Assembly: GCF_036785885.1 (NCBI RefSeq)
Contig: NC_092329.1
Span: forward strand, 5,580,001 to 5,644,000
From: Coffea arabica
Taxonomy: Eukaryota; Streptophyta; Magnoliopsida; Gentianales; Rubiaceae
Direction of reading: 5' to 3'
DNA: 64,000 nucleotides
The notes under the pieces were generated by a model. It searched no databases, was not told the origin of the DNA, and was given only the letters and a program-made list of their open reading frames with translations. The position numbers and the translations under genes are program-made. Below, piece by piece: positions 157-49,124 of the stretch. The stretch's first letter is position 1; every line of letters starts with the position of its first letter.

Positions 157-3100
157 TTATAGAGGCTGATAAGATATCCACCTTTCAAACATTGCTTGAC
201 ATTCAGCAGGCCTGTACTCAGGAGCAGTATGGCCTCCTCCCTGGTGAAAATTCAGTATGATTGGTTCAGGTATTTTCTCAATTTTTACTGTTAAATTGTG
301 CATTGAAGCAAAGGAAGATGAGAATTTCTTGCCTTTACTGTTGCAAACGTCATCTTATTTGCATAGGCCCTCGTATAACTGCACTTCAAGAAAAATAAAT
401 CCATGTGAGTTGTTTCTATTGCAGATTTATCTCCAATTAGTAAAAGATCCATTTTGTGAACGAACCCGGCAACTTGGCCCTGTAGAATCCATTGGCGCCA
501 ATCATCTATTATGGAATAATTAAGAGATTTTATCCATGCTTGAGTTCCAAAATGTGGCACAACCATATCATGGTCACCACTGAACCACAAATTTTTACTT
601 TCATCAAAGACTTAATAACAATTAACAGAATTGAGAGTTTACTCAATGATTGCACTACGTGCTAACACTTGAACTTGTGAAGCATAGGTATCAAACCTGT
701 ATATGAGCGATCTGTAGCCTCTAATGCTGAGGTTTGCATGGTATGGCAAACTAGTTCCTATATTCCTTATGTACGGGTAGCGACAGTTGCATCTTATCCA
801 TTCTCCAATACTCCCCTGCCATGTGATTTCACAAAATTACATACACAGAGACAAGCAAACACAACACGCATATTTAGCTGCTTGTTTTCTGTTGACATAC
901 CTTCCGGACATGGAGGGCCTCTTGGACACTCTCGTCATTAGCCCAATGATAAGCAAGTCTATATCCATCCATCTAAAACAAGCATAGAAACAAATCCATA
1001 ATTGCTGCGAGAACTCAAATTAACCACAAGAGTTGCTGCAAATAATCACAATGTGTTTATGCAGAAGTTCATGAAGATATTACTATCTTACACGACACGT
1101 AAATGGTGCAGTAAGTTCCTGAATTTTCAGCTCTCGAGTCTTCTTACAGAACACTTGAATGGTCGATCTCCTGCCAATGAATAAATTGTTTGGCTTTGGG
1201 GAAGCATAAGGACAGTCAGGCTCCAGAATATGTGCTGTGTCAATGTTAGTAAGTAACTGCACAAACGCATTGATTACATTAATTTTGAAATTGAAGACAA
1301 GTTTTTTAGTTATCCCCTTTTCTTGGAGAGGGGGAGGGGTTTGGGAAGTTGAGTATATGGACTTGGATAGTGACTAATTTCTCAAAATAGAGAAGCACAA
1401 AACTTGCAGAAAAGTGGTTGCTTGCCTGATTGTATGCCTGCATATTTTGTAAGCAGAGGGCATTGCTGGGATCTATATTTTGATATTCTCCTTTACAGGA
1501 AAGCTTCAAGGACTGTACAACAGTTATCTTGGCCCATTAGAAAACTATGGAAATTATTTAGTACTGAGTACGTAAGAAAGTTCTAAAAGACCTCAGGTAT
1601 TCAAAGAATAAACAACCTCATAGAGCTCATCAGAAATTAGCCCCATCCCATGAGCAAATTGGATTGCATAGTTTCCATCCCCTGGAGTGGTGGTAGGATT
1701 TCCTAGTAAGTATCCCTGAAGCCATTTGAGGGTTGTGACAAGTTAGCAGTGAAGCATAAATAACAAAATATGAGTATAGTGTTGATAATGGTTGAAAGTT
1801 GCGGTTGTGGTCCGGACCGTTCCACATCGGTCTCGGCGAGACGCAAATTTTTGAAATATTTAATATTCTAAAAATTGTAAAAAAATATGATAAACAAAAA
1901 TAATTAAAAAATTAGCAAAAATAATAAAAAATCAAGTTGACTCGAGACTACTCGGCCGTTTCTATCCGTCTCAGAGACGTCTCAACCGAGTTCTTGGTGA
2001 TCCATTATCTCGGATTCATCTCGTCCCGGTATTGGAATGGAAAGCCCCGTTCCGGTGACGACTCGGCCGAGCCTTTGAAACATGGTGTTGATACGCCAGA
2101 TTGGTAAATGAAGCGCATCTCTTAAACAATGGTCAACCTCATTATGAGGAAAATTTGTCCAGGAAAATAGTTATCTTGCTATCCCTAGATGAAAGAGAGA
2201 AGACTGTGAAAAATACAAACCTTAAGATCGATATGTGGCTCAATACCGACCTCATTTCCTGCAGAGACACCAGAACAGTAGTTTTAGAGCCATTGAATCC
2301 TTTGAGAGAATTCTTCAACATGAGCAAGTGCAAGGACATTGAACAGTGCAACTCCAAAGAGTAATGCTTCAAAGATAAATAAACTGTACGCAGATTCTGG
2401 AGGCACTTTCTATTTCTATTTCTCTCAAAGCTCGGTCATTAAATTGCTAAACATTGACTTCAAGTGTAAGCAGGCAGTATGTCTACTAAAGATGCCTGGG
2501 ATATCTAAAATTTCAAAAGCATTTGCAATACCTTCAAGTCTTTTACAAAGGCTAGTAAATAACTGTTATCATCGGAATGTACTAGAGCCTAATCAATAAG
2601 AGGTGCCTGCATAAAGAACCAAATTAAGGTCCTACCATCTGATATAATTTGAGTGACAATTGGCACAGTAATCCCCGAGTATGAGTCTCCACCAATATAG
2701 ACTGGACTGGAAATGAACTCTGGATGATCAACCAGCCACTGTAAAGCAATCAACAGTTGAGAGGCACTTAGCAAAGATGAATATCATTTATCATCACTCT
2801 TTTCATGTTAATGTCATTGAGAAGTCTACGTGCTTCAATACATGGATCATTAAAGCTTAGGTCACCAGCAAGCTTTATTTTATGATCTAAATCAGTAAAG
2901 ATGTAACGAATTCTCAATCACCAAAATAATGGACGCGGTTGTTAACTTCTTTTACGGATACTTATGCAGTACATAACGACATATAAACAGAGAAAATTGA
3001 TATACACAGTCACTTAAAGTAAAAGATTTGCCTACGAATATGGCATTTTCCTGAGTAGTAATTAGAGGTGACATCTATAACTGGCAGTTTGGTCCAAAGG

Positions 3101-4636
3101 TACTGGAGTCTTGTCCAGGTCTACGTAGGCAGGGATCAAATCTCTGGTTCAGTGGCATCAAGATAAAAGTGGAAACTTTCTAGCTTTTGATCAATTGCAC
3201 TCTCCAGTGTAAAATGATGACTAATGATCATTTAATGGTAGGAGAGTACCTTTCTAAGAAATTCATAGGCTTGGTTACAGGCTTGTAAAACTGTAGACTG
3301 AGAAGCTTTTGCAGTCCTTGCATAAGAAAAACCACTTGCCACTGGCAAATCGACAAATATTATGCTTGCCACCTGAAAAGTAACGATACATTATGGTCAG
3401 TCTAGCATTCAACTAAACACCAGAAAATCGAAACATTATCAAACACTATCAGTAGTGAACTAGTGATAGATCAGTAATCTACTGTACAATGAACTTTCTA
3501 TTTTTACTTCAGAGGAGTCTACCCTACCAGTATATCATTGATATCTTTTGACCAACAAGGAAGAAAGACACTCGAGGATGAGTTTACCTTAGTCCAAGAA
3601 TAGGGATTTAACAGCAACTTGGGCAAAGTCCCATGGTACAGCACTTGCTCGAATTTTATTGGCCCTGCAAAATCACAGGTCAACGAGGAATTGGTTGGGT
3701 TTTGGCGTGTTTCCGCTCCACTACATACATCATTCATACAGAGAGGATTGGGTTTGAAACACTGATGGGAAAAAGGGTGGATATTGATGAAGCCAAAATC
3801 TATTGTCAGAAAAATGGTTTCTTTTGCTCTTTTCCTGGACGTACGATTGAAAACAATCCTGAATCCTTTGAATAGGATGTTTTACTGAGTCTTGCTTGTA
3901 TTCATTAATTAAAACATGTATACAAATATACGGGCCTCCCCAACTAGATATATGTCTGGTGAAACAACCAAAAGGAAGAAGAAAAAAATACAGGGGCCTA
4001 ATATAGAATCGCAAAGTACATAATTTATGAAGCTAAGTTTCTGAACTGGCAAAAAGGGATCTTTCAAGATTTCAAGCTTGTGCAAAAGTCAAAGATGAAA
4101 GGGTATGGTGGAATTATGAAGAAATCAGGAAAAGGGATTACGTATCATCCATGCTCTTAATTCACACTCCATACTTATTATCGGCGTGCACTAAATCTAC
4201 CTATCTCATAAGCAAGCCCAGAGAATGAGGTGCAGCAATTGCCTCCAGTCAACCAGAGCACAAGAGGGTCTGTTTCAGGACTGGACTCTGACTTGACAAA
4301 GTAGTAGAAAAGCTGCACATCCTCTGATTCATCAACTCCTATATACCTGGTTGTACAATCTCAAAACAACTTCAATCTTTCCCAAGTTTAAATCCACATT
4401 AATGCACCAGAAATTAACTTACTGTTACAAAAATATTGAGTTACCCACCCGGTTTCGAGTTCAAATGGCAGAGGTCCTTCGAATCCTGGGAGAAACTTAA
4501 CAGGGGAACCAGCCGAAGCAAGGTTTGAACATAATTGCACAAGAACTAGCGGCAAAATCAGGTAGCTGAAGAGAGAGGATCGAATGAGAATGCGTAGCTT
4601 CCCAGTTGAGCAGCTTGGCCTAACATGTTCTGTCAT
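157..4636 (-). CDS. Serine carboxypeptidase-like (SCPL) acyltransferase-type protein, 14 exons
   Basis: Exons (minus): 4636-4449, 4346-4201, 3664-3588, 3372-3250, 2738-2636, 2258-2221, 1715-1617, 1512-1426, 1256-1092, 972-901, 815-697, 579-466, 378-333, 240-157. They join in phase to 486 aa, the usual SCPL length. An N-terminal hydrophobic segment (about residues 15-40) suggests secretory or vacuolar targeting. Seen: nucleophile Ser197 in GDSYSG, Asp408/Asp410 in YSGDHDM, His463 in GGGHTAPEY. The C-terminal half ([28 protein letters not shown]) resembles clade IA SCPLs, which transfer acyl groups from glucose esters; that role is inferred. Odd points: the conserved GGPGCS box reads GGNCCT (residues 97-102), and introns 8 and 13 begin with GC. 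The ATG at 4636 is the first in frame; a stop lies upstream. The substrate cannot be predicted. Confidence 0.9.
1788..2084. mobile_element. Small Mutator-type MITE in SCPL intron 6
   Basis: A 297-bp segment, GC-richer than the surrounding intron at both ends and AT-rich in its middle, is flanked by identical 9-bp direct repeats (GTGTTGATA) at 1779-1787 and 2085-2093. The ends are weakly inverted (ATGGTTGAAAG at the left; ATGTTTCAAAG on the opposite strand at the right). The 9-bp target duplication fits the Mutator superfamily. It has no coding capacity and lies between exons 6 and 7, so it should be spliced out. Confidence 0.7.
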
Positions 4637-5716
4637 CTCTTTACTTGGCGGAGTAACTACTGTGTTTTCCAACTCCAATAATGGATATGCTTACAATTCT
4701 GCTGATGCCCGGCACTGACGCTCACTCTGGCTGTTTCTTCTCACATCTTCTTTCCATAATAAATAGATTAAAAACTGGCTCCTCCAGAGTCCAAACGTGC
4801 CTATTCAATTACCTAGGTAGGAGGAAAAACGAGGTGCTCAATTGCTCATCTCTTCTTTTTTTTTTTTTTCCAGTGAATAAGACAGGTAAATTAGCTTGGA
4901 CGCTTCTCGTTGGCGAACCTTCAGAAAAACGTATCCCAGTCCCTATTCCCTAACGTGACCTCACTGCTTAGGTTGCTTGACAATTGACATTGTACTTTGG
5001 CAGCATGCAATTGAGTTTAAACGTCGTCTTTAGCCATCATTTGCTACGCCAAAACAGAGAGTTATTACGGGTGCTAGCCGATTTTGCCGTCCCACCCTGA
5101 TAGCTCACTTTGCCAAAGTTTTGACAAAGTTGGCGTGACAGGTCAACACGTTACGAGATTGATTGCAGGTGGCCTATCAATCGATGGATAGGGTCTGAGT
5201 CGATTCGTTTGCTCCATACAGACCAATTAAATTTGGAGTAAATTATATATAATCTCCTATAATTTTGTCTAATGCTAGATGACTTCCAGTAATTTTAAAA
5301 TAGTCACATAATTTCCTTGTAATTTTATGTAAAATGAAAAATAGAGGGAATGCATAATTAGTTATGGCGATTAGACCACATGCGCAGTAAGAATGCGTGC
5401 AATGAAATCATATAGTTTGCATGGATATCCACTTTATCCTTTTATAATTTTTGTATTTATTCACATAACCCCTACAGTTGTACAAAGTTATTAAGTAGTT
5501 ATTTGGTTAACATTTAAGTAAGGGCACCACTGTTATTTCCAATAATGATGTTACATAAGTTATTTTTCTTTAAATTTCCATGTTCACATTAAACCATAAG
5601 GAGGTGAATTGAAATTTTGAAACGTTAAGAGAAATATGTGGAAATAGATAAAACTATAGGAGGGTTATTGATAATTTACCATTAAATTTGACTAGACCCA
5701 GACCCTTTCATGAATA
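4637..5716. other. Intergenic: SCPL upstream region
   Basis: This is the 5' flank of the SCPL gene. It holds an 18-base pyrimidine tract near 4855-4872. No convincing coding region, RNA gene or TATA box at a usual distance was seen. Confidence 0.4.
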
Positions 5717-5725
5717 TTTTTTTGA

Positions 5726-6754
5726 GGGAAATTTGCTAAATCGGTCCCTAACATTTGTCAAAAAAACTTTTTTAGTCCCTAATATTTAAAATCAACCAGA
5801 ATTGTCCCTTACATTTAAGTTATGAACCATTTTTGTTCTAATGTTCGTATTTGCTCATTTTTCCCACCAAAAATAGCACGCCTCTCTCATGCGGGTATAT
5901 TTTCAAGGGCAAAAGCGAAAAACACACTTCATTAACAGTTCATTAACATATTAGACCCACCAACAATTATCTTCTAATTTTAGTTCAACTCCAACTCATT
6001 AACAATAGCAAAGTGCACATCCAATAGGCAACCAAACCAGTCCAAAGCAATTTCTCTCTTCGGATTCTCCGTTCTTGATCAGCTTCCAGCCGGTTGATTG
6101 TTCTTAATAGACCAAGTATTATTGACACAGATCTACTACACATTGGCAGGTCATACCACTTGAAGTAGCCACAAGCACGAGTTACCTAAAATGCACAAAG
6201 AACATCACATATCAAGACGAAATTTTAACTCCACACCCTAAACCCAAACTGATTTGAAATGTTTATAAAGCTTACTCCATAATTTGGACAACCATAGAAT
6301 CTTCTTTCCGGATTTGTAGATTTCCAAGAAGTCACAATGATGGGCTGCTTTCCACAAAGACATCGCTCGTTGTTCGGATCCATTTTATTCTTCAATATGT
6401 CAGCTTATTCTTCACATTTTCTTACTATTCTTCCTTCATTACACAGTCATCTAGTTGCAGCTGCGTTTTTTCTCTTCAATTTCGTTCTTTCAGTGAGGTA
6501 ATTAGGACACAAATGAAAAAATATGAAGGAAAGATGGCTTTACTCAACTGAAAATAAAATGTATGTTTCGATTTTTCCCTTGAAAATATACTCACGTGAA
6601 AGAGACGTGCTATTTTCAGTTGAAAAAATGAGCAAATATTAGCACTAAAATGGATCATAATTTAAATGTTCGGGATAATTATGGCTGATTTTAAATGTTT
6701 GGGACTAAAAAAGTTTTTTGGGCAAATGTTAGGGACCAATTTGGCAAATTTTCC
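5726..6754. mobile_element. Mutator-like element with long inverted repeats carrying a zf-GRF gene
   Basis: A 1029-bp element. Its ends are inverted repeats of about 200 bp (left about 5726-5938, right about 6549-6754) that pair over most of their length. The termini are GGGAAATTTGC and, reverse-complemented, GGAAAATTTGC. Flanks are TTTTTTTGA (5717-5725) and TTTTTCTGA (6755-6763), a 9-bp target duplication with one mismatch. Long inverted repeats with a 9-bp duplication are typical of Mutator-like elements. No transposase is present, so it is non-autonomous. The interior holds a two-exon minus-strand gene. Confidence 0.8.
5985..6383 (-). CDS. GRF-type zinc-finger protein with C-terminal membrane segment, inside the Mutator-like element
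   Basis: Exon 1 is 6383-6276 and exon 2 is 6185-5985, with a 90-bp GT-AG intron (GTAAG...TTTAG) at a phase-0 junction; 102 aa. The finger starts with CLCGK (Cys8, Cys10), continues with VTSWKSTNPERRFYGCPNY (Cys32), and ends after the intron with ACGYFKWYDLP (Cys41). This is the zf-GRF pattern of plant proteins. A helical basic stretch follows, then a hydrophobic tail at about residues 79-100 (WTGLVAYWMCTLLLL). Zf-GRF domains bind single-stranded DNA in better-studied proteins; the role here is unknown. It lies wholly between the inverted repeats. It could be a captured host gene or a long-standing passenger. Confidence 0.75.
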
Positions 6755-6763
6755 TTTTTCTGA

Positions 6764-7439
6764 ACTAAATTTTTTTTTATAAATATTAGAGTTCAAAAAT
6801 AACATATATATCATCCAATTTTTGTTTTTAAATAATAAAATTAGCAAAAAAATAACCATAACATTTTTTTGTAACTGGGGAGGCCCGCTTCAAATAACAT
6901 AGTGTCCAATTAGGTTTTGGGTGTCCAATTGAGATTCAGGTGGATTCAAATTTTGAGAAAAAAATAAATAATAATAGATTCAAATATGATACATAATATT
7001 AGTGAACGATTAATTTATGATAAAAATAGGATCAAAGGGTTATGTAAGGTTTTAAAAATCTGTTGTCTTATTATTTTTTTACCGACATTATTAATTAGCT
7101 CGTTAGTCCAAATAAAAATTAAGAAAATTTATTATTTAATAAATGAAATTAATTTATAGAAAATTTTACTATATTTACGTAATGAAATGAGCTGTGTGAG
7201 TACGAAACGACCCACACGGGACGAATGAGGAATAGCTACGGCACAGTACAGTTTAATATTAGAAGAGTAGTCATATTATGTGGACACAAACATTTAATAA
7301 ATTAATTACCTCATGCTAGCAAAACCATTTCCAACTATGAATTATTAGAGTAAATGTCAAAAATTTCAAAGTTTTGGTCATCTCTTCCGAGAATTGGTGG
7401 AACTGCCACAAAGACAACTTTGTGCTGTATCCAAAATTA
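6764..7439. other. Intergenic AT-rich DNA between two Mutator-like elements
   Basis: AT-rich sequence with homopolymer runs. No gene, RNA or repeat structure was recognised apart from the 9-bp target duplication at 7431-7439, which belongs to the next element. Confidence 0.4.
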
Positions 7440-9168
7440 GGGTTAATTACATTTACTTCCCTTGAGATTTGTCCATATTACCAAACAAACCTTATAGTTA
7501 AATCAAATAACATTCAACTCCTTTGACTGCCCAAACATTTATCAATAAGTTCCTTACCATTATCAATCGTTAATAATTATAGTGACATCAACAAAGAAGA
7601 AGTTGTGGAGTCCTATAATGCCCTTATCTTTCCAGTAATATATGGCCTTTTTTTTCTACCTAACTTTTTATTTTACCCATAAAAATCTTCTTCCATTCTT
7701 TCTCACGACCAATCCTTATCAATCCTACCCCCACAATATCGTATTCTCCATTACCCATCTTTATCAACATCCACCAGAAAATTCTAAACTTCAACTCCAT
7801 ATTTTCCCAACCAAGCCAATAAGAAATCCCTTTGCAAGACAATCTGCCCAAATTGTTCTCCCCTCTTAATTCTTGCAAGATAGATTAAGATCGTAGAAAG
7901 GAAAGTGCATTTGTTTGCTCGCTTTTTGATAAGAATTCTGCAAGTAGTGAATGGGTGAAAATAGCAATCAGATTAGAGGCCAGAAGAACATGATGGTGGT
8001 ACTAAAAATACCTACCAATACTAGCTGTCAATGCTGCTACAACCGCGGTCATCTACTCTTTACTCGACGAAATGCCGCATAGAAGTGGTCTTTGGGTTTA
8101 GGGAGATGGCTTTTGTGAAATTATAGTTTTCTTAAGTTTTTGTGAGTTTGGAGAATTGGAGTGATGTGTGGTTTCTTCAAATGGGATTTCTAGTAATTCC
8201 ACATATACTACAAGTATTTGGGTAGCATGTTCTATTGTTCCCTGAGTCATTGATGATGAAGATTGCATTTTTTTTTCTTTTTCTTTTTCTTTTTTTCCCT
8301 TTCTCCCCAAACCTGAAATCTAGAGTCGGAATCATAGGGCCTGGACTATGGATCCTTGCATTGAAGTTGAATTTTGGATGCAGTTCCCATGATGACCCTT
8401 AGCTAGTTTGGAAGAGCAGATTTGGTGAGAAAAGAAAAGATTATAAAGGAAAGTTGAATCTTTCTCACATTTGGGACTTTGGATAGGAAAGAATTGAAAA
8501 GAAACGGCAGGCTGTCAGCTCCCTTCCACGCCAGAAAAACTTTCTGCCCAAAATCGGCGGAAAACGTGAGAAAGTGGAGTGAGTTAAATGAATTATACCA
8601 TATGCCATTTTTACCCTTAAAAGATTAAAATATAACTATATAACCTAATAAAATTCTCATGGTATCTTAAGATTTAAGGATTTTTACATAAAATTGAATC
8701 TTGTCTTTTCAATTCTTTCCCTTCCAAACAAAGGAAAGTTATTTCATCTCCTTTCTTCTCCAAAACTCCCAAATAACATGAAAAGATAATATAATCTTTT
8801 CTTTTCTTTTCTAACTTAAGGTTTCTGTTCTTTTCTTTTCTTTCCTAAACTCCCAAACTAGCTATAAATCTTTAACTTTTCGTCATGTGAATTTTTGACA
8901 CCGTTGATGTACAATCAAGTGATGATATCTTATCATTTTTGGAAGAGATTTAGGTGAAATTGCCACCAGAGCTAGGCAAACAGATTTTTGTTCCTTTTTT
9001 TTATCCCTAAATTAAGAACATCTTAAGTGGCAATTTCGACTTTTCACTAAATCCGTCAAGCTCAATTAATAGAAGTTACTATGAAGGGGGGTATCGGTTA
9101 TTTGGCCAAACCATAAGGTTTATTTAGTAATATGGATAAACCTCAAGAGAGGTAAATATAATTAACCC
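7440..9168. mobile_element. Non-autonomous Mutator-like element (1.7 kb)
   Basis: The termini are perfect inverted GGGTTAATTA at both ends. The inverted repeats continue for about 75-80 bp (left 7440-7520, right 9090-9168) with scattered mismatches. An identical 9-bp direct repeat CCAAAATTA lies at 7431-7439 and 9169-9177. No transposase ORF is present. The interior includes a second inverted-repeat element (8401-8866) and about 0.8 kb of sequence (7640-8330) that I do not recognise and that may be acquired. Confidence 0.8.
8401..8866. mobile_element. Nested inverted-repeat element inside the 1.7-kb Mutator-like element
   Basis: The left end reads TAGCTAGTTTGG and the right end its complement CCAAACTAGCTA. 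Purine-rich sub-terminal stretches at the left (AGAAAAGAAAAGATTATA) pair with pyrimidine-rich ones at the right. The terminal TA may be a short target duplication, but this could not be settled, so the superfamily is left open. No coding capacity. Confidence 0.5.
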
Positions 9169-9177
9169 CCAAAATTA

Positions 9178-9540
9178 AGGATGAAATGACAAGAAATGAA
9201 TTGTTCCTTAATTCTCTCTTACCTTCAGTTAATGCTACCTCATATCAATTTACGAATTCAAATTTATCAACAAAGTAAAATTTAAATTACAAGGGTCAAA
9301 CACATGCCATGTAGCTCTAACATAACTATCTTATATGAATTAACATAAACGGTAGTTAAATATAATGTCCTATATATTAATAAAGATGTAGTACAAGTTG
9401 TTTGTCCACATAAACAGTAGTAATTAAATATGAGTAGCTTGTTAAAGAGCTTTGACATGCCTTTTTTGGAAAGATATGAAATGCTTCAGAACAGTTACAT
9501 TAGTAACTTTTTCTGCCCCTCTCCCATGCTAGAGATCTTT
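9178..9540. other. Intergenic flank of the LTR retrotransposon
   Basis: AT-rich sequence with no gene recognised. Its last bases continue into GTCAG (9541-9545), the target site of the LTR element. Confidence 0.4.
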
Positions 9541-9545
9541 GTCAG

Positions 9546-10107
9546 TGAAGAGGTCGTTTTTGTCCTGCTGGAGTGAGTCACCCGAGCTGGAGAAGGCCTC
9601 TTATCCTGGGTGGTTATCTCAGACGAGGTAACCTGCTTAAATTGTAGGAGGGACTAGAGTCCCCGGTGTAACTCCGAAGCTTAAGTCAGTTCGGGAATGA
9701 AAGAGTAATGAGTAGAGAAGACTAATACGCCTTTACCAGAATTTTGGTCGTCCCCTTTCTCAGTGGAGGCGTTGAGTATTTATAGGGGTCAGATAGGAGA
9801 GAGGGACTGCTTGCACAGGTCCCCAGAGATCCGGCAGTGTCAGTATATCAAGGTGAGTTAATGGACTCTGCGGAAAGGTGCGCCGGAACAGTTGTGTCAG
9901 GCGGCGCATGTCAGAGCAGGTTTAACAGAAGTGTCAGAGGTGTCAGACGTGTCAGAGGTCGACTCCGGTTGCCAGGTCATTATACTTGACCTCGGCTGGC
10001 TGAGTGAAAGCCTTGGCCGAGGCAATAATTAGGCCGAAGTCAAGGCTCGATGGTGGGAGGCCGAAGCAGTCGGAACAGCTCTAGCCGAGATGGAAATACC
10101 CACCTCA
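9546..10107 (-). repeat. 3' LTR of the Tat-type element
   Basis: 562 bp, TG...CA. It matches the 5' LTR at all but five positions, near 9678, 9920, 9938, 10084 and 10090. It contains the same minus-strand TATA-like motif as the 5' LTR. Confidence 0.95.
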
Positions 10108-10124
10108 CTAAGCCCCCCAGCCTT
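10108..10124 (-). other. Polypurine-like tract before the 3' LTR
   Basis: On the element strand a short G-rich stretch (AAGGCTGGGGGGCTTAG) directly precedes the 3' LTR. This is the expected place of the plus-strand primer. It is not purely purine, so the exact primer is uncertain. Confidence 0.45.
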
Positions 10125-10374
10125 GGGAAGGGCGAGGTCGTGGTCACCCGAAGTCGTCACTTCCCGAGGCTGACGCGCGTGTGGAACACGGAACATGGCA
10201 AGGACACGTCACGACTGTGTAGATGTGACTGGGGGAAGGTGGAACGGGGGCTGGCAGCTTTAACGTCGGATCAATACGATCGATTGTCAGGTGAACAGCA
10301 CCTTCATTAATGAGGGGAGAGAGAGCTTTAGGGAATCCCAAAGATCGCGTCTCTTCGGTTCCCCCCCTATTGCC

Positions 10375-10382
10375 TATAAATA
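10375..10382 (+). promoter_or_regulatory. TATA box of the antisense gene in the retrotransposon
   Basis: TATAAATA lies in the context CCTATAAATAGGGG, about 160 bp before the ATG at 10542 on the plus strand, with pyrimidine-rich leader sequence between. The position and context are those of a plant pol II promoter. It lies outside the 3' LTR, so the antisense gene appears to have its own promoter. Confidence 0.6.
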
Positions 10383-10541
10383 GGGGTTTCTTTTCACCGT
10401 TCCATTCTTTACCAAAATTTGAAATCACCTCAGAGCTCTGTCTATTTGCTTTTTCACTTCGGCAATCTTTCCAACCTATCTTCCTCAGCAACTTCCTCAC
10501 TTCGCATCTTCTAAGTAAGTTCACTTCTTCTTTCTGTATTA

Positions 10542-12749
10542 ATGGCTAGAACAGCTCGCACACACAGAGAGACGGTGAGGCCTGACTTCACCGAGGCAGA
10601 GAGGCCCGGCCCTTCCGAAGAGAGAACTGCATCCGACGCCGAGGAAGGAGGTGCGGAAGCTTCTTACCAAGCCCGGGGAGGAGGTGCAGAGACATCTCGC
10701 CGAGCCGAGTCTCCGGAGGAACAGGCCGAAGAGATTGAGGTAGAGCCCGAGGTCTTGTACAATGATGACCTCGGGAATGAAGTTCCTAGGGACGAAGGTG
10801 TACAGGAGCCCTCCACTCCTCCAAACGTGGCCACGCTGAACTATGGTCAGATGCCGGCCTTCATCAGTGCGATGGACCAAGATTCCATAGCCGAAGTGAT
10901 CCGCAAGTACCCGTGGAGGAGGGATTACAGTGTCTACCTGCCGCGCCCACATCAGTCCGCCGCTCTGCCTCCAAAGGGTAGGGTAGCTATCTACATAGAA
11001 CAGCTGGAGGCCGGACTCAGGGTGCCCACCACAAGGTTTCTTCGGGACTGCCTGAGGTACTGGGGGGTGAGGATTACTCAGCTCACCTCAAATGCAATTC
11101 GTATCCTTGTCGGTTTCCAGCTACTCTGCCAACATCAAGAGATAGAGCCGAACGTGAACCTCTTCCGCCGTTGTTATTCACTCAAGAACAGTGGGAACGA
11201 GAAGGGGTGGTTCTACTTCGGGAACAAGGTTCCCAAGTTGGTATATGATGCCCCGAGCTCAATAAAGGAGTGGAAGAATAACTTCTTCTTCGTCCCGGCT
11301 GAGGACTTCCCCAGGGGATTCTGGTGGAGACCTCCCACTTCGGTCAAAGAAACCTCCCCGGGCAAATTGGAAGAACGTAACTTCCAAAAGTTGACGGGGT
11401 CGGGCCTGAAGATTAACTGTTGGGACTTCCCTGAAAGGGTGCTCGTGGAGGGCGAGCTCAGCCGAGCCTTGATCAGCTCGGATCACACCATCCTCATTTC
11501 TACTAGGCTAAAAATACCTTGTAATTTTCCATTCCCCTCCTTTGTTTATTCTTCTTGAATTCTAACTGACTCTATTTCATTCTTTGCAGTGGTGAAGGTT
11601 TCCGACCTGATTACCTCGGGAGAGGTCGAGGTGGCGAAGAGGCCAGCAAAAAAGCGCAAGGACGCTGGTGAGTCCTCTTCCAGGCCGGTCAAGAAGACCA
11701 CCGCGGCGGCAGTCACTCACGACCCTGCCGTGGTGATCATAGGCGAAGGGTCGCACACCTTGGGCACGCCGGGGAGGTCCAAAGCGTCCATTCCAGTGGG
11801 AGTTTCATCCCATGGAGTAACAATAGCCTCTCAACCTCGGGGCCGAGGTCGAGGTGCGACCGTTGTCCAGGGTGACTCCATCTCGGGGAACTCATTATTC
11901 AACCTCCACCACGTGCCCTCTCTAGCAGCCGGGGAGGACAAGAGGCACTCCGGGGCACAATTTTGCCCGGAGTGGTCGGTCAATGTCAATGACCGCTGCA
12001 AGAATCCCCTGGTCGCGCACGAGCTCCTGGTGAATTCAGTCCTGCCACAGGACAATACTTACACCAGAAAACTCAATCTGGCCGAGCTGATGCAGGGCGC
12101 CTCGGTTTCTTGGGCTTCCACCACGGCGTTCCTCGCTGAGATGTACCAACGCTTCGGTGACTTCGTAGAGACTTACGAATCACCTGCCGAGCTCCAGAAG
12201 AAGATCGCCGATCTGGAAGGGAAACTAAAGGCCGCCGAGCTGGCACGTGACAAGGCCGAGGCGGCGAAGAAGCAGGCCGAGGTCTCGAACAACTCCCTCA
12301 TAACTGCTCTTGATGAGGAGAGGGAGAAGAGAGCTCAGGAAGAGCAATCATCCAAAGTGGCCATAGACACAGCCGGGGCCACCGCCGTGGAAGCATTCCG
12401 GAAGTCGGAGTCTTTCATTCGCGACCTCGGTGAACTCACTCGGCCGAGCTTCATGTTCGGGTATACGTCGGCCATTAATGATGCGGCACCCTTTCTTCTC
12501 TCTGAGCAGCTGGAGTCCTTCCAGAGTGCCTCACACTACAATGAGGATGCCAAGGAATTATGCGACCGCGTGGGTGAGGACATCCGGACTGGAAAGGACC
12601 TGGCTGAGGTCCGAGCTGAATTCAACAAGTGGCTCCAGGAATTCGAGCTGGATGGTGATAGTGCCGAAGGAGACCAGGCCGGTGGAGGAGATGAAGAACA
12701 GCAGGATGCCGAGGCAGGCGGCGAGACCACGGGGGGCCAGAACCCCTGA
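10542..12749 (+). CDS. Antisense additional ORF of the Tat element: gypsy-type transposon-associated protein, two exons
   Basis: Exons 10542-11520 and 11590-12749, with a 69-bp GT...TTTGCAG intron, in phase; 712 aa. The N-terminus (1-100) is acidic and low-complexity. Residues about 118-285 (RDYSVYLPRP, GLRVPTTRFLRDCLRYWGV, GWFYFGNK, WKNNFFFVP) match the pattern I know as the 'putative gypsy type transposon' family (Pfam PF04195, from memory). A basic KRPAKKRK stretch after the intron could be a nuclear signal. Residues about 525-590 form an Ala/Lys/Glu coiled coil, followed by an acidic tail. The gene runs opposite to gag-pol, converges with pol, and has its own TATA box and AATAAA. Its function is unknown. 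The stop at 12747 is created by a 142-bp tandem duplication. Confidence 0.75.
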
Positions 12750-12888
12750 GGTCCGAGCTGAATTCAACAAGTGGCTCCAGGAATTCGAGCTGGATGATGA
12801 TAGTGCCGAAGGAGACCAGGCCGGTGGAGGAGATGAAGAACAGCAGGATGCCGAGGCAGGCGGCAAGACCACGGGGGGCCAGAACCCC
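12605..12888 (+). repeat. 142-bp tandem duplication at the 3' end of the antisense gene
   Basis: Two adjacent copies (about 12605-12746 and 12747-12888) are nearly identical, with two substitutions seen (GGT/GAT and GAG/AAG codons). The 142-bp unit is not a multiple of three, so the second copy is read in another frame and a TGA at the junction ends the first. Without the duplication the ORF would run through to the TAG at 12904-12906. Confidence 0.9.
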
Positions 12889-13019
12889 GGAGGAGGAGAT
12901 GCTTAGAAGCGTCTATTTTTGTAATAGATGGGCCGAGGTCGTAGATAACCTCGGCCATTAGCTCTTGTAATTGGGGGTCGAGGTCATGAATGATCTCGGT
13001 CTTTTGCTTTTCGAACTTC

Positions 13020-13025
13020 AATAAA
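13020..13025 (+). terminator. Poly(A) signal of the antisense gene
   Basis: AATAAA lies 271 bp after the antisense stop codon on the plus strand and is followed by T-rich sequence. It ends the antisense unit before it reaches the pol coding region, which converges from the other side (pol ends at 13187). Confidence 0.55.
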
Positions 13026-13186
13026 GTTGGCCTTTTTCAGTCTTGCATATTTTTGCCTTTTTTCTTCAATTGAGTTCAGTTTTTCTTTTTGACTACTTCT
13101 TTGTCCCCTTATTTTTCACTTAGGATAAAATGAGAATAAGTGAGAAATAACTTTAAGAAGTAATGAGATATAAAAATACGTACCTC

Positions 13187-16100
13187 TCAAGGGTAATACA
13201 ACTTAAGATTCTCAGCATGCCAGGTTCGGGGCACCCGCGAACCATCTCGGTAGGCTAGTTTTCAATATCCGTTTTGGCTGGACTCAACAACACGATATGG
13301 TCCTTCCCATTTTGGGTTGAGTTTTCCCTGAGACTCAGCTCGGCTAACCGAGTTCTTCCGGAGCACAAGGTCTCCCGGATTGAATCTTAAATTCTTGACC
13401 CGAGCATTGTAATAGCCAGCTAGGATATTTTTGTAGATCGCAACTTTGGCCGCGGCCATATCACGCTTCTCTTCGGCGAGATCGAGGTCAACTCGCCGCT
13501 CTTCTTCATTGACTTCGGCAGCATACGCAGCCATTCGCGGGTTGGGTGTGATGAACTCGGCCGGAACGACGGCCTCAGACCCATAAGTTAGGAAAAACGG
13601 CGTTTCTTGAGTTGCTGACCTCGGCGTAGTCCGGTAGGACCACAGCACGCTGGGGAGCTCTTCCATCCATGACGATCCAACCCGGTGAAGCCTGGTCTTG
13701 AGGCCATGGAGGAGAGTTCGATTGAAGTTTTCGGCTTGTCCATTCGCCTGAGGGTGCCCCACCGAGGTGAAGTGTTGCTTAATTCCCAAGTTCTCGCACC
13801 ATGCCTTGAAAGGGTTATCAGCGAACTGCCTTCCATTATCCGAGATCACCACTCGAGGTAATCCGAAGCGACAGATCACGTTTTTCCAGAAAAATTTTTG
13901 GACAGCCATTCCAGTGATGCTTCTCAGGGGCTCAGCCTCGACCCATTTAGTGAAGTAGTCCACCGCCACTACCACGTAGGCATAGTTGCCTTGGGCCCTG
14001 GGGAATGTACCGATTATGTCAGTCCCCCATTGCTCGAATGGCCATGGTGAGGTGATGGGGATCATAAGGTTAGTGGGTTGGTGGTGCTCAGGGGCATGGT
14101 GTTGACAAGAAGGACAACAAAGGACCATGACCTGGGCATCTACCCTCATGGTGGGCCAAAAGTACCCGAGGAGCAGAGCTTTCTTCACGAGCATCCTAAA
14201 GCCGACGTGGGCACCACAGAGTCCCTCATGAATGTCCTCGAGGATTCTCTCGTCTTCTTCCGGGGTGATACATCGTAGCCAGGGGCCGAGATAGGACCTC
14301 TTGTACAAGAGACCTTGCCGGAGGGTGTACCGAGCTGCTTTTCGTTGGAGCTTCCGTGATTCAGCTCGGTCTTCCGGGAGTTCACCCCGGCTGAGATACC
14401 GGGTAAGGGGCCCCATCCAGGTGTCCCCAGGGTAGACAGGGTACACGACCTCAGTTAAATATCCCGGCTCAGCTAAGACCTCTACGAGAACCGTTTTGTT
14501 CAGATCGGAGAAAGAGGTGGAAGAAAGCCGGGAGAGGGCGTCAGCCCTTCGGTTTTGTGACCGCGGTATCCTTTGAATTTCAAAAGACTCGAAGTGTGTG
14601 GCCAGCTGGAGTACCTTGGAGAGGTAACGCTGCACCACCTCTTCCCTGGTCTCGTATTCGCCTAGTATTTGGCACACGACGAGTTGGGAGTCGCTATAGA
14701 CCATAATATGTGCGGCCCCGAGCTTACAAGCTATTTGCAGACCGACAATGACTGCTTCGTATTCGGCTTCATTATTGGAAGCGGCAAAATCGAACCTCAA
14801 GGCATATGAACATATCTCTCCTTGGGGGTCTTCGAGGAGCAAACCGGCTCCACTGCCCTCACTGTTGGACGAGCCATCCACATGCAAGGTCCATCGCTGA
14901 GGCTCTGGGGTGGCCAGGGTGACATCCTGGGTTGTAGCCGGGATAGTCTCCTTGACTTCCTCAAAAGTAAGCTCGGGAAGGAAATCCGCGAGAGCCTGGG
15001 CTTTAATTGCCGTGCGAGGCTTATAGGATAAGTCATACTCACCCAACTCGATGGCCCACTTGGTGAGGCGTCCTGAGGCCTCCGGTCGCGATAGGACCTG
15101 CCGAAGTGGTTGGTCCGTCCTCAGGCAGACGTGGTGAGCTAAGAAGTAGGGCTTAAGCCTTCGAGCTGCATGAATCAAGGCCAGCACAAGTTTCTCCGCC
15201 TGAGTGTACCTCGTCTCCGGCCCTCGGAGAACTCGGCTGACATAATAAACGGGTGTTTGGACACCTTCCTCCCTTATCAGTACGGCACTCACAGCTTCGG
15301 CCGCAGCAGACAGGTACAAGAATAACTTGTCCCCTGGGCGAGGTGAAGTGAGAGTTGGGAGGTAGTTGAGGTAATCCTTTAACTGCTCAAATGCCTGTTG
15401 ACACTCTTCCGTCCAGGAGAATTTATCAGCTTTCTTAAGGACTTTGAAAAATGGCAACGCCCTGGAGGCTGACTGCGATAAGAACCGATTCAGGGCTGCC
15501 AACCGCCCCGTCAGCCTCTGGACGTCGCGGACACACCGTGGTGGGGACATCTCTTGGATTGCCCTAACTTTGTCCGGATTTGCTTCAATACCCCGCCTAG
15601 AGACGAGGTAGCCCAGGAACTTTCCCGAAGTGACCCCGAGAACACATTTCTTGGGGTTCAGCATCATTCGTGTCTCCCGCAGGACTTCCAGGACTTCTTT
15701 CAGGTCAGCAAGGAATGTGGAGGTTGTCTGGCTCTTCAAAAGGACATTATCTACGTAGGCCTAGACAGTCCGACCGATTTGAGATTTAAAGGCTTGGTTG
15801 ACCAAGCGTTGATATGTGGCCCCGGCGTTCTTTAGTCCGAAAGGCATGGTGGTGTAGCAATATGTGCCTTTGTCAGTGTAGAAGGCGGTCTTTTCCTGAT
15901 CCTCCGGACTCATCCCGATCTGGTGGTACCCTTTAAAAGCGTCAAAAAAGCAGAGGACTTCATATCCCATTGCCGAGTCTACCAAAGTGTCGACCTTAGG
16001 CAATGGGTAGCAATCCTTGGGGCAAGCCTTGTTGAGGTCGGTGAAGTCGACGCACATTCTCCAGGTCCCGGTGTCCTTCTTCACCATGACCGGGTTGGAC

Positions 16101-18661
16101 AACCAGGTCGGATATTGGACCTCCCGGATGATCTTTGCAGGGAGGAGCTTATCCACTTCTTCGCCCACAGCTCGGCTACGCTCAGGGCCGAGGTGCCTCC
16201 TTTTTTGTTTGACCGGGCGGACTTGGGGATCGACATTCAGCTCATGTATCATGAGGTGATGCGGAACTCCTCGAACCTCCTCCGCGGCCAACGTGAAGAC
16301 GTCCCGGTACTTTCTGAGGAGGTCTGTCATGCCTCTTTTAACAGGATCGGGCAGTCGGGTACCAACGCGAACTGTCTGATCAGGCTTCGTGGGGTCCAGA
16401 GGGAGTTCTTCCACCTCATCCCCAGTCTCCAGCCTTGGGATCTTCTCAGCTCGCTGAGGATCAATGCTATCTATTGAGAGGATATTTGACCTCTTCTCGG
16501 ACCTTGCCCCGGAGGTTGATGGGGAGGCTGCTTGCAGAGTGGCGAGGTAACATTCTCGGGCAGCGCAGACATCGCTGCTGACCTCGGCCACCCCCGCAGA
16601 AGTAGGAAACTTGAAGCTTAAGTGGTAGGTGGAGTACACTGCCCGCAAAGCATTAAGTGTAGGTCGGCCGAGTAGTAAGTTATACGGGGAGTCAGCTTTG
16701 ACTACTGCGAAATTGACGGGAATGGTTCTGCTGCGGGGGTGACGCCCTATAGTCACCGTCAAAGTCACCATCCCTTCGGGGTGCACAATGTGTCCCCCGA
16801 ACCTGACAAGAGGGGTTCTCACCGGGGTCATGCACTCCCTGGCCAGTTTAAGGCTTTCAAAGGTGCGGAGGTACATGACGTCAACGGAGCTCCCCGAGTC
16901 AATGTAGACCTTTTTCACGATGTAGTTATTGGCGAGAACCTCGATCACCAAGGCCTCGTGACTGCTGGAGGCAGCCGGGACTGGATCACTAGGCCCGTAA
17001 GTGATCACCTCGGATAGGCGAGCACTTGTCTCGGCCTGATCCGGGTTGGTTTGCCTGTAGGTCCTCTTTCGGGAGTTCTGACTGTCTCCTCCCGTCGGAC
17101 CTCCAGCAATTGTGTTGATGACCCCGGCAATGTTGGATCCATACCCCAGCCCATGGCCTGGGGATCCGTCTCGGGGAGGCCTTTTTGTCTCCCTAGGATC
17201 TTCCGGGGGCCTACAACTGCTTCTTGATGTCCGCCTTTCATCCCGGCGTGGGTCACCCCGGTGGTCACGTCGGGGTTCATTTCGTGGCTGTCCGCCACTT
17301 CGGCGGATGAACTGCTTCAGGTGGCCCTGTCTGATGAGGTTCTCGATCTCTTTTTTGAGATCGTTGCAGTCCTCAGTTTCGTGCCCGATGTCCCGGTGGT
17401 ACAGGCAGTAGAGGTTCGAGTTCCTCTTGTCTTTGTTGCCGAACATCTTGGGAGGGGCCCTCCCGAGGTTGTTCTGCTCCATTACAGACAGTACGCGAGA
17501 TCGGGAAGTGTTTAAGGGAGTCAGTTCGGATTCAGGAATATGTGACTTTCCCTTTGAGATCCTGTCGAACACACTCCGGCGATCTCGGCCGGGACTCTGG
17601 AAGCCAGTTCCTGTCCCCGATTCACTTCGGCTAGGCTCCTTCCCTCTTCGGGCGTCAGTCCTCGGGCGAGCAGCTTGGACTTCTTTTTTCATACGGTTGA
17701 GGTCCTCGGCCTGTATGCCCTTCTCGACCTTCAACCATAATTCGTGAAGTGAACGGGGATACTTCTTATGGATCCCCGTGTTGAATACCCCGGCAACGAG
17801 CCCGTGGGTGAAAGCGGCAATGGTGACCTGCTCATTAGGGTTAGGTATCTGCACGCTTTCTTCGTGGAACCTCTGGACATACGACCGAAGTGATTCCCCC
17901 GGGTTCTGCTGCATGTTCAACAGATAAGCCGAGGTCCGGGTCGTCGGTCGGGAGGAAACAAAACGGTGAAGAAACTTCTCCACTAATTCCCCCAGGGTTG
18001 AAATGCTCCTAGGTTCTAGACCCCAGAACCATTTTCGAGCTGTTCCCTGGAGGAATACCGGGAAAGCCCGGCATATGACGGGATCAGGGATGCAATATAG
18101 GCGGAAGGCCGAGATGAAGGCATGAATGTGGTCTTCCGGATCACCTCGGCCGTCATAAGACGGTATCGAGGGAAGCTTGAAGTTGGGAGGGAGTCTCTCC
18201 TCGTTGATGTCATCGGTGAAGGGTGGAGCCCTCTGGTAATCCACCCCGGCTCTCTCAGTGGGCCGAGGTTCCTCAGGTCGTCGGCCCAAAAGCCCTCTTG
18301 ATAGAGACCTGGTCAGGGAGGCTACCTTAGAGGTGGCCTTGGAGAATGCTTTCTTCGACGCACTTCGGCTCAAGCGTCTCCCATCGGACTCTTCTTCAGA
18401 CGAAACTTCAGGGGATCCGTCCGACTTCCTTTTAGAGGACTCGGCCTTTTGCTTGCCTTGTCTCTTGAAATACCTCCCTAACTCCTCGAAAATGTTAGGA
18501 TTCTCGGTCACAAACTCGGCCATGCGGGTTATGGCTTCTTCGTTTGCGGGCTGGGTCCTTGGGGATTCCTGCCCTTCAGAGATACCTTCTTGCTGAGCTA
18601 CATTACTCTGCTCAGCCCCAATAGCGAGAGCTTTCCTGCTCCTAGAACGCGTAGGCTTCAT
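13187..18661 (-). pseudogene. Interrupted gag-pol polyprotein of the Tat-type element
   Basis: One continuous frame of 1,825 codons with two in-frame stops: TAG at 15763-15761 (codon 967) and TGA at 13264-13262. In order: capsid-type gag domain, CCHC-like knuckle (YCLYHRDIGHETEDC), aspartic protease (DSGSS, LLGRP), RT (MPFGLKNA), RNase H, a second RNase H (LHVDGSS, NNEAEYEA), then integrase with an HHCC finger and D,D,E residues (WGTDIIG, ISDNG, GQAEN). The first stop lies just before the RT metal-binding box, which reads YVDN instead of YVDD. The second removes only the last 24 codons, which remain recognisable (PRTWHAENLKLYY). The start is ATG at 18661; codons upstream to 18697 are open but lack ATG. 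Both breaks suggest this copy cannot make its own RT. Confidence 0.9.
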
Positions 18662-18678
18662 TCTCTGATGTCTTTGTG

Positions 18679-18696
18679 TTCCCACAGACGGCGCCA
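18679..18696 (-). other. Primer binding site
   Basis: TGGCGCCGTCTGTGGG begins two bases inside the 5' LTR. The TGGCGCC start is common to primer binding sites of plant Ty3/gypsy elements, which pair with a tRNA 3' end. I do not assign the tRNA species. Confidence 0.8.
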
Positions 18697-18698
18697 AT

Positions 18699-19260
18699 TG
18701 AAGAGGTCGTTTTTGTCCTGCTGGAGTGAGTCACCCGAGCTGGAGAAGGCCTCTTATCCTGGGTGGTTATCTCAGACGAGGTAACCTGCTTAAATTGTAG
18801 GAGGGACTAGAGTCCCCGGTGTAACTCCGAATCTTAAGTCAGTTCGGGAATGAAAGAGTAATGAGTAGAGAAGACTAATACGCCTTTACCAGAATTTTGG
18901 TCGTCCCCTTTCTCAGTGGAGGCGTTGAGTATTTATAGGGGTCAGATAGGAGAGAGGGACTGCTTGCACAGGTCCCCAGAGATCCGGCAGTGTCAGTATA
19001 TCAAGGTGAGTTAATGGACTCTGCGGAAAGGTGCGCCGGAACAGTTGTGTCAGGCGGCGCATGTCAGAGCAGCTTTAACAGAAGTGTCAGCGGTGTCAGA
19101 CGTGTCAGAGGTCGACTCCGGTTGCCAGGTCATTATACTTGACCTCGGCTGGCTGAGTGAAAGCCTTGGCCGAGGCAATAATTAGGCCGAAGTCAAGGCT
19201 CGATGGTGGGAGGCCGAAGCAGTCGGAACAGCTCTAACCGAGCTGGAAATACCCACCTCA
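18699..19260 (-). repeat. 5' LTR of the Tat-type element
   Basis: 562 bp, TG...CA, directly followed by the GTCAG target duplication at 19261-19265. Being on the minus strand, it is the promoter-bearing LTR. Confidence 0.95.
18929..18938 (-). promoter_or_regulatory. TATA box in the 5' LTR
   Basis: CTATAAATAC on the minus strand, about 320 bp from the upstream edge of the LTR and about 270 bp before the gag ATG. This suits transcription of the element; the transcription start was not determined. Confidence 0.6.
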
Positions 19261-19265
19261 GTCAG

Positions 19266-48673: not shown

Positions 48674-49124
48674 GGCTAACTGTGCATGGAGCACAAAGAA
48701 AAGCTTGGAGGAACTCTGAGAGCTAAAAGCAAGGATTTTTAGTTTGTTATTTTCCAAATTTAGTCGATCTTTTGAGAAATATATAGGAATTCGCATGGTT
48801 TTTTCACCAAACTTGAATCCAGAAATGCTTTTGGTTGAGGAGACAAACTAACTAATCGAGCATGGATGGAATTTTTTTTTACCAAGTAATGATGGAGGTG
48901 TTATTCAACATAGGTAACTTCATTGAATTCAGAGGTTACTTGTCAAAGTTTGGTACTTGGACCACTTCTTGACCTTTTCTAAACTGAAGTCTAGAAATTC
49001 GGCTTTTATAAACCTAATCCCAGAAGAAACCTCAAAAGCCGGCAACTCTTGAGGTCCTTCCAGGGACTTATAAACCAAACCCAAACCCCCCCCCAGGTAC
49101 TTGGACCACAGTAAGCATGAATTT

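Follow-up and report, generated by a model that had tools for sequence, protein, structure and literature searches.

A Ty3/gypsy long terminal repeat (LTR) retrotransposon of the Tat type, located in a 64,000-nucleotide stretch of the Coffea arabica genome (NCBI RefSeq assembly GCF_036785885.1, contig NC_092329.1, positions 5,580,001 to 5,644,000 of the forward strand; hereafter the window, whose own numbering is used throughout), carries on the strand opposite to gag-pol what its copies across the genome indicate is a real, conserved, selected and spliced accessory gene. We propose, with a probability of about 0.75, that this is an accessory RNA polymerase II gene of a Retand-like element, whose protein acts in the nucleus in trans for the family. 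The gene lies on the plus strand between pol and the 3' LTR, and its joined exons encode 712 amino acids and a stop codon from the ATG at 10542 (Table 1). A first-pass annotation of the window had outlined such a gene, and each of its coordinates (TATA box at 10375, ATG at 10542, exon and intron borders, 712 amino acids, AATAAA at 13020) was found to match base for base. The AATAAA does lie ahead of pol, whose stop codon is at 13262-13264 on the minus strand, so that the pol and antisense reading frames converge without overlapping.

Intron conservation among the genomic copies

The longest plus-strand stop-free frame in this region spans 396 amino acids, while 1000 dinucleotide-preserving shuffles of positions 10108-13040 gave a maximum of 300 and none of 345 or more. 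The 69-nt intron contains 34 T, versus 22 in the T-richest 69-nt window of the joined exons, and a CTAAC lies some 24 nt upstream of the last base of the acceptor AG. Nevertheless, because both exons share one frame, 69 is a multiple of 3 and a single in-frame TGA (11556-11558) stands between them, the window copy alone cannot prove the intron, and the gene could be read as a continuous frame interrupted by a nonsense codon. The proof comes from relatives with other intron lengths.

Relatives were sought across the 1.198-Gb host genome, in which the exon-1 query returned at least 125 matches (123 scored of 1,422 first-look candidates); no second copy was found within the window. Fifty loci were studied, namely the best 30 by score (L002-L031, L002 being the window copy) and 20 weaker ones picked by hand (L032-L051), three of which were chosen for their apparently intron-less frames. 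The near set is 78-100% identical over exon 1 and the distant set 50-60%. These 50 are not all independent, as L005 and L006 yield identical values and seem to represent a single duplicated stretch. Five more distant copies (L052-L056) were kept out of the counts of 50.

In all 50 copies exon 1 was covered by one unbroken tblastn match, bar at most three residues, and exon 2 came next, in pieces in nine of them. The intron interrupts the same codon in 50 of 50. Automatic boundaries gave GT and AG ends in 49, and the alignment shows a GT donor in the other, L030. Intron length was 67-71 nt in 48 copies, 62 nt in L030, where the boundary is misplaced, and 1.4 kb in L051. Leaving L051 out, division of the 49 short introns by 3 leaves a remainder of 2, 0 and 1 in 25, 12 and 12 copies, respectively. 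Given that 37 of the 49 are thus not a multiple of 3, only splicing preserves the frame, and it is the frame after splicing that is conserved. The exon-1 length is divisible by 3 in all 50 copies, which is built into tblastn and was excluded as evidence. Moreover, CT[AG]A[CT] occurs within the last 50 nt of the intron in 30 of 50 copies, and L052-L056 each show a 72-nt gap with the same translated ends, compatible with the same intron.

A continuous frame without an intron would agree with the shared frame, with the 69-nt length and with the lack of a stop in 3 of the 12 copies that have a 69-nt stretch (L032-L034) and in 4 of the 5 further copies; yet in the 37 copies whose stretch is not a multiple of 3, exon 2 continues in the spliced frame, and the GT-AG ends and T-rich middle are kept. 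This reading is refuted by the variation in intron length and is hardly credible. Open frames of 743-833 amino acids, considered as intron-less genes, were likewise rejected, as those fetched contain a 69-nt intron without a stop. Such an intron is present in L032, L033, L034, L052, L053, L054 and L056, in which retention would keep the frame and lengthen the protein by about 23 residues, most of them hydrophobic. Intron retention could give some distant copies a second isoform. In L051, the gap between the exons has expanded, apparently through an insertion, and its GT and AG ends remain.

We also searched the genome with a 140-residue query spanning the exon junction. No intron-less copy appeared among the matches listed (196 matches, 150 scored of 620 candidates), each of which falls on one side of the junction, none covering both exons. 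An intron-less copy is expected to rank first for this query, and its absence among the listed matches fits copying through sense RNA only. The intron would survive because the genomic RNA that gives rise to new copies is sense, and in that RNA the intron is reversed and cannot be spliced.

Distribution in the genome

The opposite strand, own promoter and intron give the gene the look of a host gene, or part of one, that this single element acquired recently. The distribution of the copies refutes such a recent capture, to which we give practically no credence: they lie on many contigs, with at least 125 exon-1 and at least 150 PF04195 matches, their families are about 50% identical, and 19 of the 20 distant loci retrieved have pol next to the gene in antisense orientation. 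In L032 no more than 27 residues of pol were found, and in L051 none; the near loci, window copy apart, were retrieved with flanks too short for pol to be seen. An ancient capture of a host gene is conceivable.

The genome search with the PF04195 profile gave 150 scored matches (of 979 candidates), all above the curated cut-off, and no match was obtained in 14 control genomes. Six matches of equal score lie on one strand at C8:16207731-16262362 with a spacing of about 9.5 kb, together with a seventh on the other strand. This array resembles head-to-tail tandem Retand elements, perhaps with shared LTRs, or may be an assembly effect. Pairs of matches 9.0-9.8 kb apart were also observed on C22, C9 and C19.

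Selection on both exons

Selection on the protein was assessed by the ratio of nonsynonymous to synonymous substitution rates (dN/dS, by Nei and Gojobori). Copies with stops in exon 1 (15 of 50) or with exon 2 open over fewer than 300 amino acids (16 of 50) were dropped first, a filter that favours intact copies. The near-near pairs in the bins given here are 95 of 171 for exon 1 and 108 of 210 for exon 2, the remainder having either no value or a dS that was 0 or exceeded 1. For exon 1, dN/dS was 0.08-0.46 in near-near pairs (dS 0.05-1) and 0.08-0.33 in distant-distant pairs (120 of 120). For exon 2 the corresponding ranges were 0.11-0.76 and 0.10-0.31 (78 of 78 distant pairs), the value of 0.76 coming from the two closest near pairs (dS <0.05). 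Overall, the ratios mostly fall between 0.1 and 0.3. Disjoint pairs with dS of 0.04-0.6 gave 0.08-0.49 for exon 1 (n=14) and 0.15-0.55 for exon 2 (n=11), each with Fisher p <0.01, and the pooled ratio of nonsynonymous to synonymous differences (pN/pS) was 0.24 and 0.27, respectively, or 0.39 in both exons when transversions only were counted.

Wrong-frame controls showed median dN/dS values of 1.19-2.47, save the antisense frame sharing third codon positions (0.20, 0.24), which in exon 1 is broken by no fewer than 7 stops in every one of 35 copies. A 182-residue minus-strand open reading frame (ORF) over exon 1 (10539-11087) was tried as a sense-coded gene and dropped; the corresponding stretch lacks stops in 5 of the 19 near copies, that of the window among them, and the frame has a median dN/dS of 1.47.

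Ratios so far below 1, together with the frame controls, are hard to explain without a protein, and they indicate that both exons are under strong purifying selection. A comparison of this ratio among genomic copies had been named beforehand as a refuting test, and the outcome contradicts neutrality. Over the same 63 distant pairs, the median was 0.11 for the pol C-terminus versus 0.19 for exon 1; because selection on exon 1 comes this near to that on pol, the element probably needs the antisense-encoded protein.

Two other explanations are affected by these data. The gene might be a decaying relic with no present role, as suggested by the copies with stops in exon 1 or without a 300-residue open exon 2, by an in-frame stop in the reverse transcriptase (RT) of the window copy and by the high ratio in the two closest near exon-2 pairs. 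We find this very unlikely, since any family is expected to contain old copies that are no longer active and close exon-1 pairs (dS 0.05-0.07) have ratios as low as 0.08-0.22. Alternatively, the antisense transcript itself could be what works, by pairing along about 2.6 kb of the genomic RNA and feeding small-RNA silencing or hindering pol, the protein being secondary or absent. The gene is wholly antisense to the genomic RNA, to which its transcript would be complementary, and the available text of one study proposes a double-stranded RNA role beside a protein role (PMC7264820). However, an RNA-only role predicts neither the strong protein-level constraint on both exons nor a frame kept across intron lengths, and it therefore seems distinctly improbable; an RNA role added to that of the protein is possible.

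Promoter, start and poly(A) signal

Upstream of the ATG, TATAAATA was found in 48 of the 50 copies, at -138 to -202, the exceptions being L013, with TATAAA at -142, and L021, with only TATAA at -257. Of these 48, TATAAATAGGG is present in 42 (24 near, 18 distant), and a pyrimidine run with CA downstream of the TATA, a loose pattern, in 47. The ATG is at the aligned start in 48 of 50 copies (exceptions L009 and L050), and the last 130 nt before the start are free of ATG in all 50. These counts indicate that the TATA core promoter of the antisense gene is conserved across the copies examined. Between this promoter and the LTR there is no real similarity (best match 14 bases, E 0.10).

An AATAAA located between +1237 and +1307, counted from exon 2, is shared by 13 of the 29 near relatives; among the 20 distant copies, of which L051 was searched over 472 nt only, one has it. 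The first-pass annotation had ascribed to the gene a TATA box and an AATAAA of its own: the former is upheld, and the latter is present in the window copy but is not widely kept. Its broader claim, that the element keeps an independent unit, is sustained at the sequence level by the conserved exons, intron and TATA box, by PF04195 and by dN/dS below 1, the AATAAA part excepted.

Predicted features of the protein

The domain that the first-pass annotation had named for a profile search, PF04195 (Transposase_28, TRP28, 'putative gypsy type transposon'), was matched in exon 1 above its curated cut-off (E 3.8e-14). Within its first 45 residues, exon 2 encodes 9-12 lysines and arginines in 34 of 34 open copies, and this patch, resembling a nuclear localization signal (NLS), is present in near and distant families. 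Coiled-coil models (NCBIfam, Pfam) matched exon 2 below their curated cut-offs in every case. SMC models matched exon 2 of two distant copies only (L044, E 0.35; L033, E 0.082) and not that of the window copy. In the four copies tested, a 3.5-residue periodicity peaks at residues 295-364 of exon 2. Because this peak lies outside the region of the coiled-coil matches, the coiled coil is to be taken as a resemblance, not as proof. Of the two features behind the DNA- or RNA-associated look noted earlier, the basic patch is conserved and the coiled coil amounts to sub-threshold matches.

Comparison of exon 1 with PDB sequences gave nothing credible (E 2.2). No relative was confirmed for exon 1, RT or integrase among viral contigs, nor for exon 1 among genome contigs outside the host. 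The integrase had one distant match, 32% identical, in a 5,405-bp contig (L001, PIVK01000084.1) filed under a Rhodospirillales metagenome-assembled genome, which is possibly eukaryotic contamination.

The host element and its surroundings

The element is 9,715 bp long, with gag-pol on the minus strand, in a window of 39% GC. Its LTRs have TG...CA ends and differ at 5 positions (Kimura two-parameter distance, K2P, 0.009), and a GTCAG target site duplication (TSD) flanks them, as in a Ty3/gypsy LTR element. Pfam matches give the domain order gag, RT, RNase H and integrase; no protease match was obtained at E 1 in the ORFs of the element. Within the 3' pol ORF, RVT_3 (294-411) lies between RT_RNaseH (143-242) and Integrase_H2C2 (500-557), and we read it as what may be the second, archaeal-type RNase H of the Tat lineage. 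A second RNase H between RNase H and integrase is the published criterion for the Tat lineage, Ogre or Retand (PMC6317226). An Ogre-type gap between gag-pro and RT is not present, as gag to RT form a single open frame (15761-18730, minus strand), and an antisense TRP28/PF04195 ORF, a mark of Retand, is located between pol and the 3' LTR. Taken together, these features indicate that the element is a Retand-like Tat element and that its accessory gene belongs to a published kind.

The two gag-pol ORFs share one frame and are separated by a single stop (15761-15763, minus strand) in the RT-coding region, because of which the window copy is probably not autonomous. With plant substitution rates of 1.3e-8 to 7e-9 per site per year, the LTR distance places the insertion at about 0.3-0.6 million years ago. 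Among the 50 copies, the window copy alone has a duplication of the C-terminal stretch of exon 2 (by tblastn, as far as flanks were fetched).

Table 1. Features of the antisense gene and of its host element (positions in the window).
Feature	Position	Strand	Evidence or remark
TATA box TATAAATA	10375..10382	+	167 bp upstream of ATG; kept in 48/50 copies
Exon 1, coding, 326 complete codons; TRP28/PF04195 at residues 151-215	10542..11520	+	Pfam E 3.8e-14
Intron, 69 nt, GT-AG, T-rich, CTAAC near 3' end, one in-frame TGA; after first base of codon	11521..11589	+	
Exon 2, coding: NLS-like basic patch, RGRGRG, coiled-coil-like region, acidic C-terminus	11590..12749	+	
Tandem duplication, 142 bp (12604-12745 / 12746-12887)	12604..12887	+	Frame stop 12747-12749 at copy junction
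AATAAA, candidate poly(A) signal	13020..13025	+	
Ty3/gypsy LTR retrotransposon, Tat type, Retand-like	9546..19260	-	LTR pair, TSD, gag/RT/RNase H/RNase H-like/integrase domains
3' LTR, 562 bp	9546..10107	-	5/562 positions differ from other LTR
5' LTR, 562 bp	18699..19260	-	LTR comparison
TSD GTCAG (5 bp)	9541-9545 + 19261-19265		Flanks of element
3' pol part: RT end, RNase H, second RNase H-like, integrase	13262..15760	-	ORF and Pfam
gag and RT start	15761..18730	-	One open frame, ended by in-frame stop in RT-coding region

Elsewhere in the window, an uninterrupted ORF of 847 amino acids (46304-48847, minus strand) resembles by eye an S-domain receptor-like kinase, and an inverted repeat at 5725-6755, with 121-nt arms that are 86% complementary and 789 nt apart, is perhaps a small DNA transposon. 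No Rfam family was matched in the window.

Comparison with known elements

A survey of Retand elements (Vicient 2025, PMC11963269; represented, like the other publications discussed here, by part of its text) covers 2,735 recent copies in 122 clusters from 34 species, with antisense TRP28 in 97% of the clusters. Over 63 of the clusters, 104 antisense ORFs are described, 57 with TRP28 and 11 with Smc domains, and a DNA-binding region is predicted. Like these TRP28 ORFs, the window gene is antisense, lies between pol and the 3' LTR and carries PF04195; moreover, the LTR (562), internal region (8,591) and distance from pol to the 3' LTR (3,154) are within the printed ranges (315-1,194, 7,380-12,869 and 2,933-6,566, respectively). 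Unlike the ORFs of the survey, for which an ORF finder was used, the window gene has two exons. The survey text at hand never uses the term 'intron', and no description of an intron in the antisense gene was found in the accessible portions of the Retand and Tat literature, though Gomez-Orte et al. (2013) may mention it; the intron has apparently been overlooked. The survey's 'Smc' ORFs may be second exons like exon 2, a weak link resting on the SMC matches (E 0.08 and 0.35) in two distant copies.

In the Silene latifolia Retand (Kejnovsky et al. 2006, as cited in PMC7264820 and PMC11728184), ORF3 and ORF4 are likewise antisense between pol and the 3' LTR, and ORF4 has Transposase_28. They are described as separate ORFs, unlike the two-exon window gene, and could be two exons of one gene. 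ORF3/4 are also named for Retand-2 (PMC11728184). Transposase_28 is reported in 23% of Retand elements (PMC6317226), and PF04195 tops the domain counts of blackgrass extrachromosomal circles (PMC3091746 / PMC10606437).

Maize Grande gene23 (Gomez-Orte et al. 2013, as cited in PMC7264820) has its own promoter and encodes a nuclear protein. By description alone, the window gene resembles it as an antisense accessory gene in a long 3' region; on the side of sequence, the features of the window gene that bear on these two traits are TATAAATA in 48 of 50 copies and the NLS-like patch. Human T-cell leukemia virus (HTLV) HBZ, as cited in PMC11963269 and PMC7264820, is also an antisense gene of an LTR element encoding a nuclear regulatory protein, a functional parallel only; the HTLV antisense promoter is inside the 3' LTR (PMC7264820), whereas here the TATA box lies between the LTR and exon 1. 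Plant LTR elements are generally intron-free, with Ogre and EVADE as exceptions (PMC12786077). Ogre (Steinbauerova et al. 2008, as cited in PMC6317226 and PMC12786077) likewise has a spliceosomal intron in a Tat-type element, one that separates gag-pro from RT in the sense RNA, whereas the window intron belongs to the antisense gene.

Proposed role of the antisense gene

We propose that the gene would be transcribed independently by RNA polymerase II, on the strand opposite to gag-pol, from its TATA core promoter, and that its pre-mRNA would be spliced and translated into the 712-residue protein. This protein would present an N-terminal TRP28 domain, the NLS-like patch just past the splice junction, a region resembling a coiled coil and an acidic C-terminus. 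It could enter the nucleus through the basic patch and, as the sub-threshold coiled-coil matches suggest, self-associate, probably as an oligomer on element DNA or chromatin. There it would serve the family in trans, with control of the transcription or silencing of copies as the most likely means. Taken alone, this control of transcription or silencing is a tentative assignment, to which we give somewhat less than even odds. It is closely followed by another role, rather unlikely in our view, in which the protein is a nuclear accessory factor for integration that tethers or imports the pre-integration complex and does not control transcription. The NLS-like patch in both families and the weak coiled-coil matches would suit it, and the available text of PMC7264820 suggests a connection with how the pre-integration complex enters the nucleus; however, nothing in the analysis ties the protein to integrase or Gag.

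Several points weigh against an accessory protein acting in the nucleus in trans. Three things underlie its nuclear role: the basic patch, the cited description of Grande and a published prediction of DNA binding. Selection does not distinguish control of transcription from a part in integration, import or the packaging of RNA. The pairs compared for dN/dS share history, the copies may recombine and intact ones were chosen. Moreover, exon 1 is interrupted by stops in 15 of the 50 copies, the window copy has its RT stop, and AATAAA is not a general feature of the family.

On balance, we lean slightly towards extending the finding to Retand elements in general, whose antisense accessory gene would be one spliced gene, made of a TRP28 exon, a short intron and a coiled-coil exon, with the published 'TRP28' and 'Smc-like' ORFs as its exons; its long-lived antisense intron would be copied intact in each cycle, the antisense mRNA never being a template. 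Antisense accessory genes are widespread in plant retrotransposons, and their role is described as an open question in the available parts of PMC11963269 and PMC7264820. If this extension is true, an intron kept intact through each retrotransposition cycle records that the antisense mRNA is never the template. The conserved intron also changes the protein to be tested, which is here one of 712 amino acids and not two shorter ORFs, and provides a splice junction that is detectable in stranded RNA data without confusion with the sense RNA.

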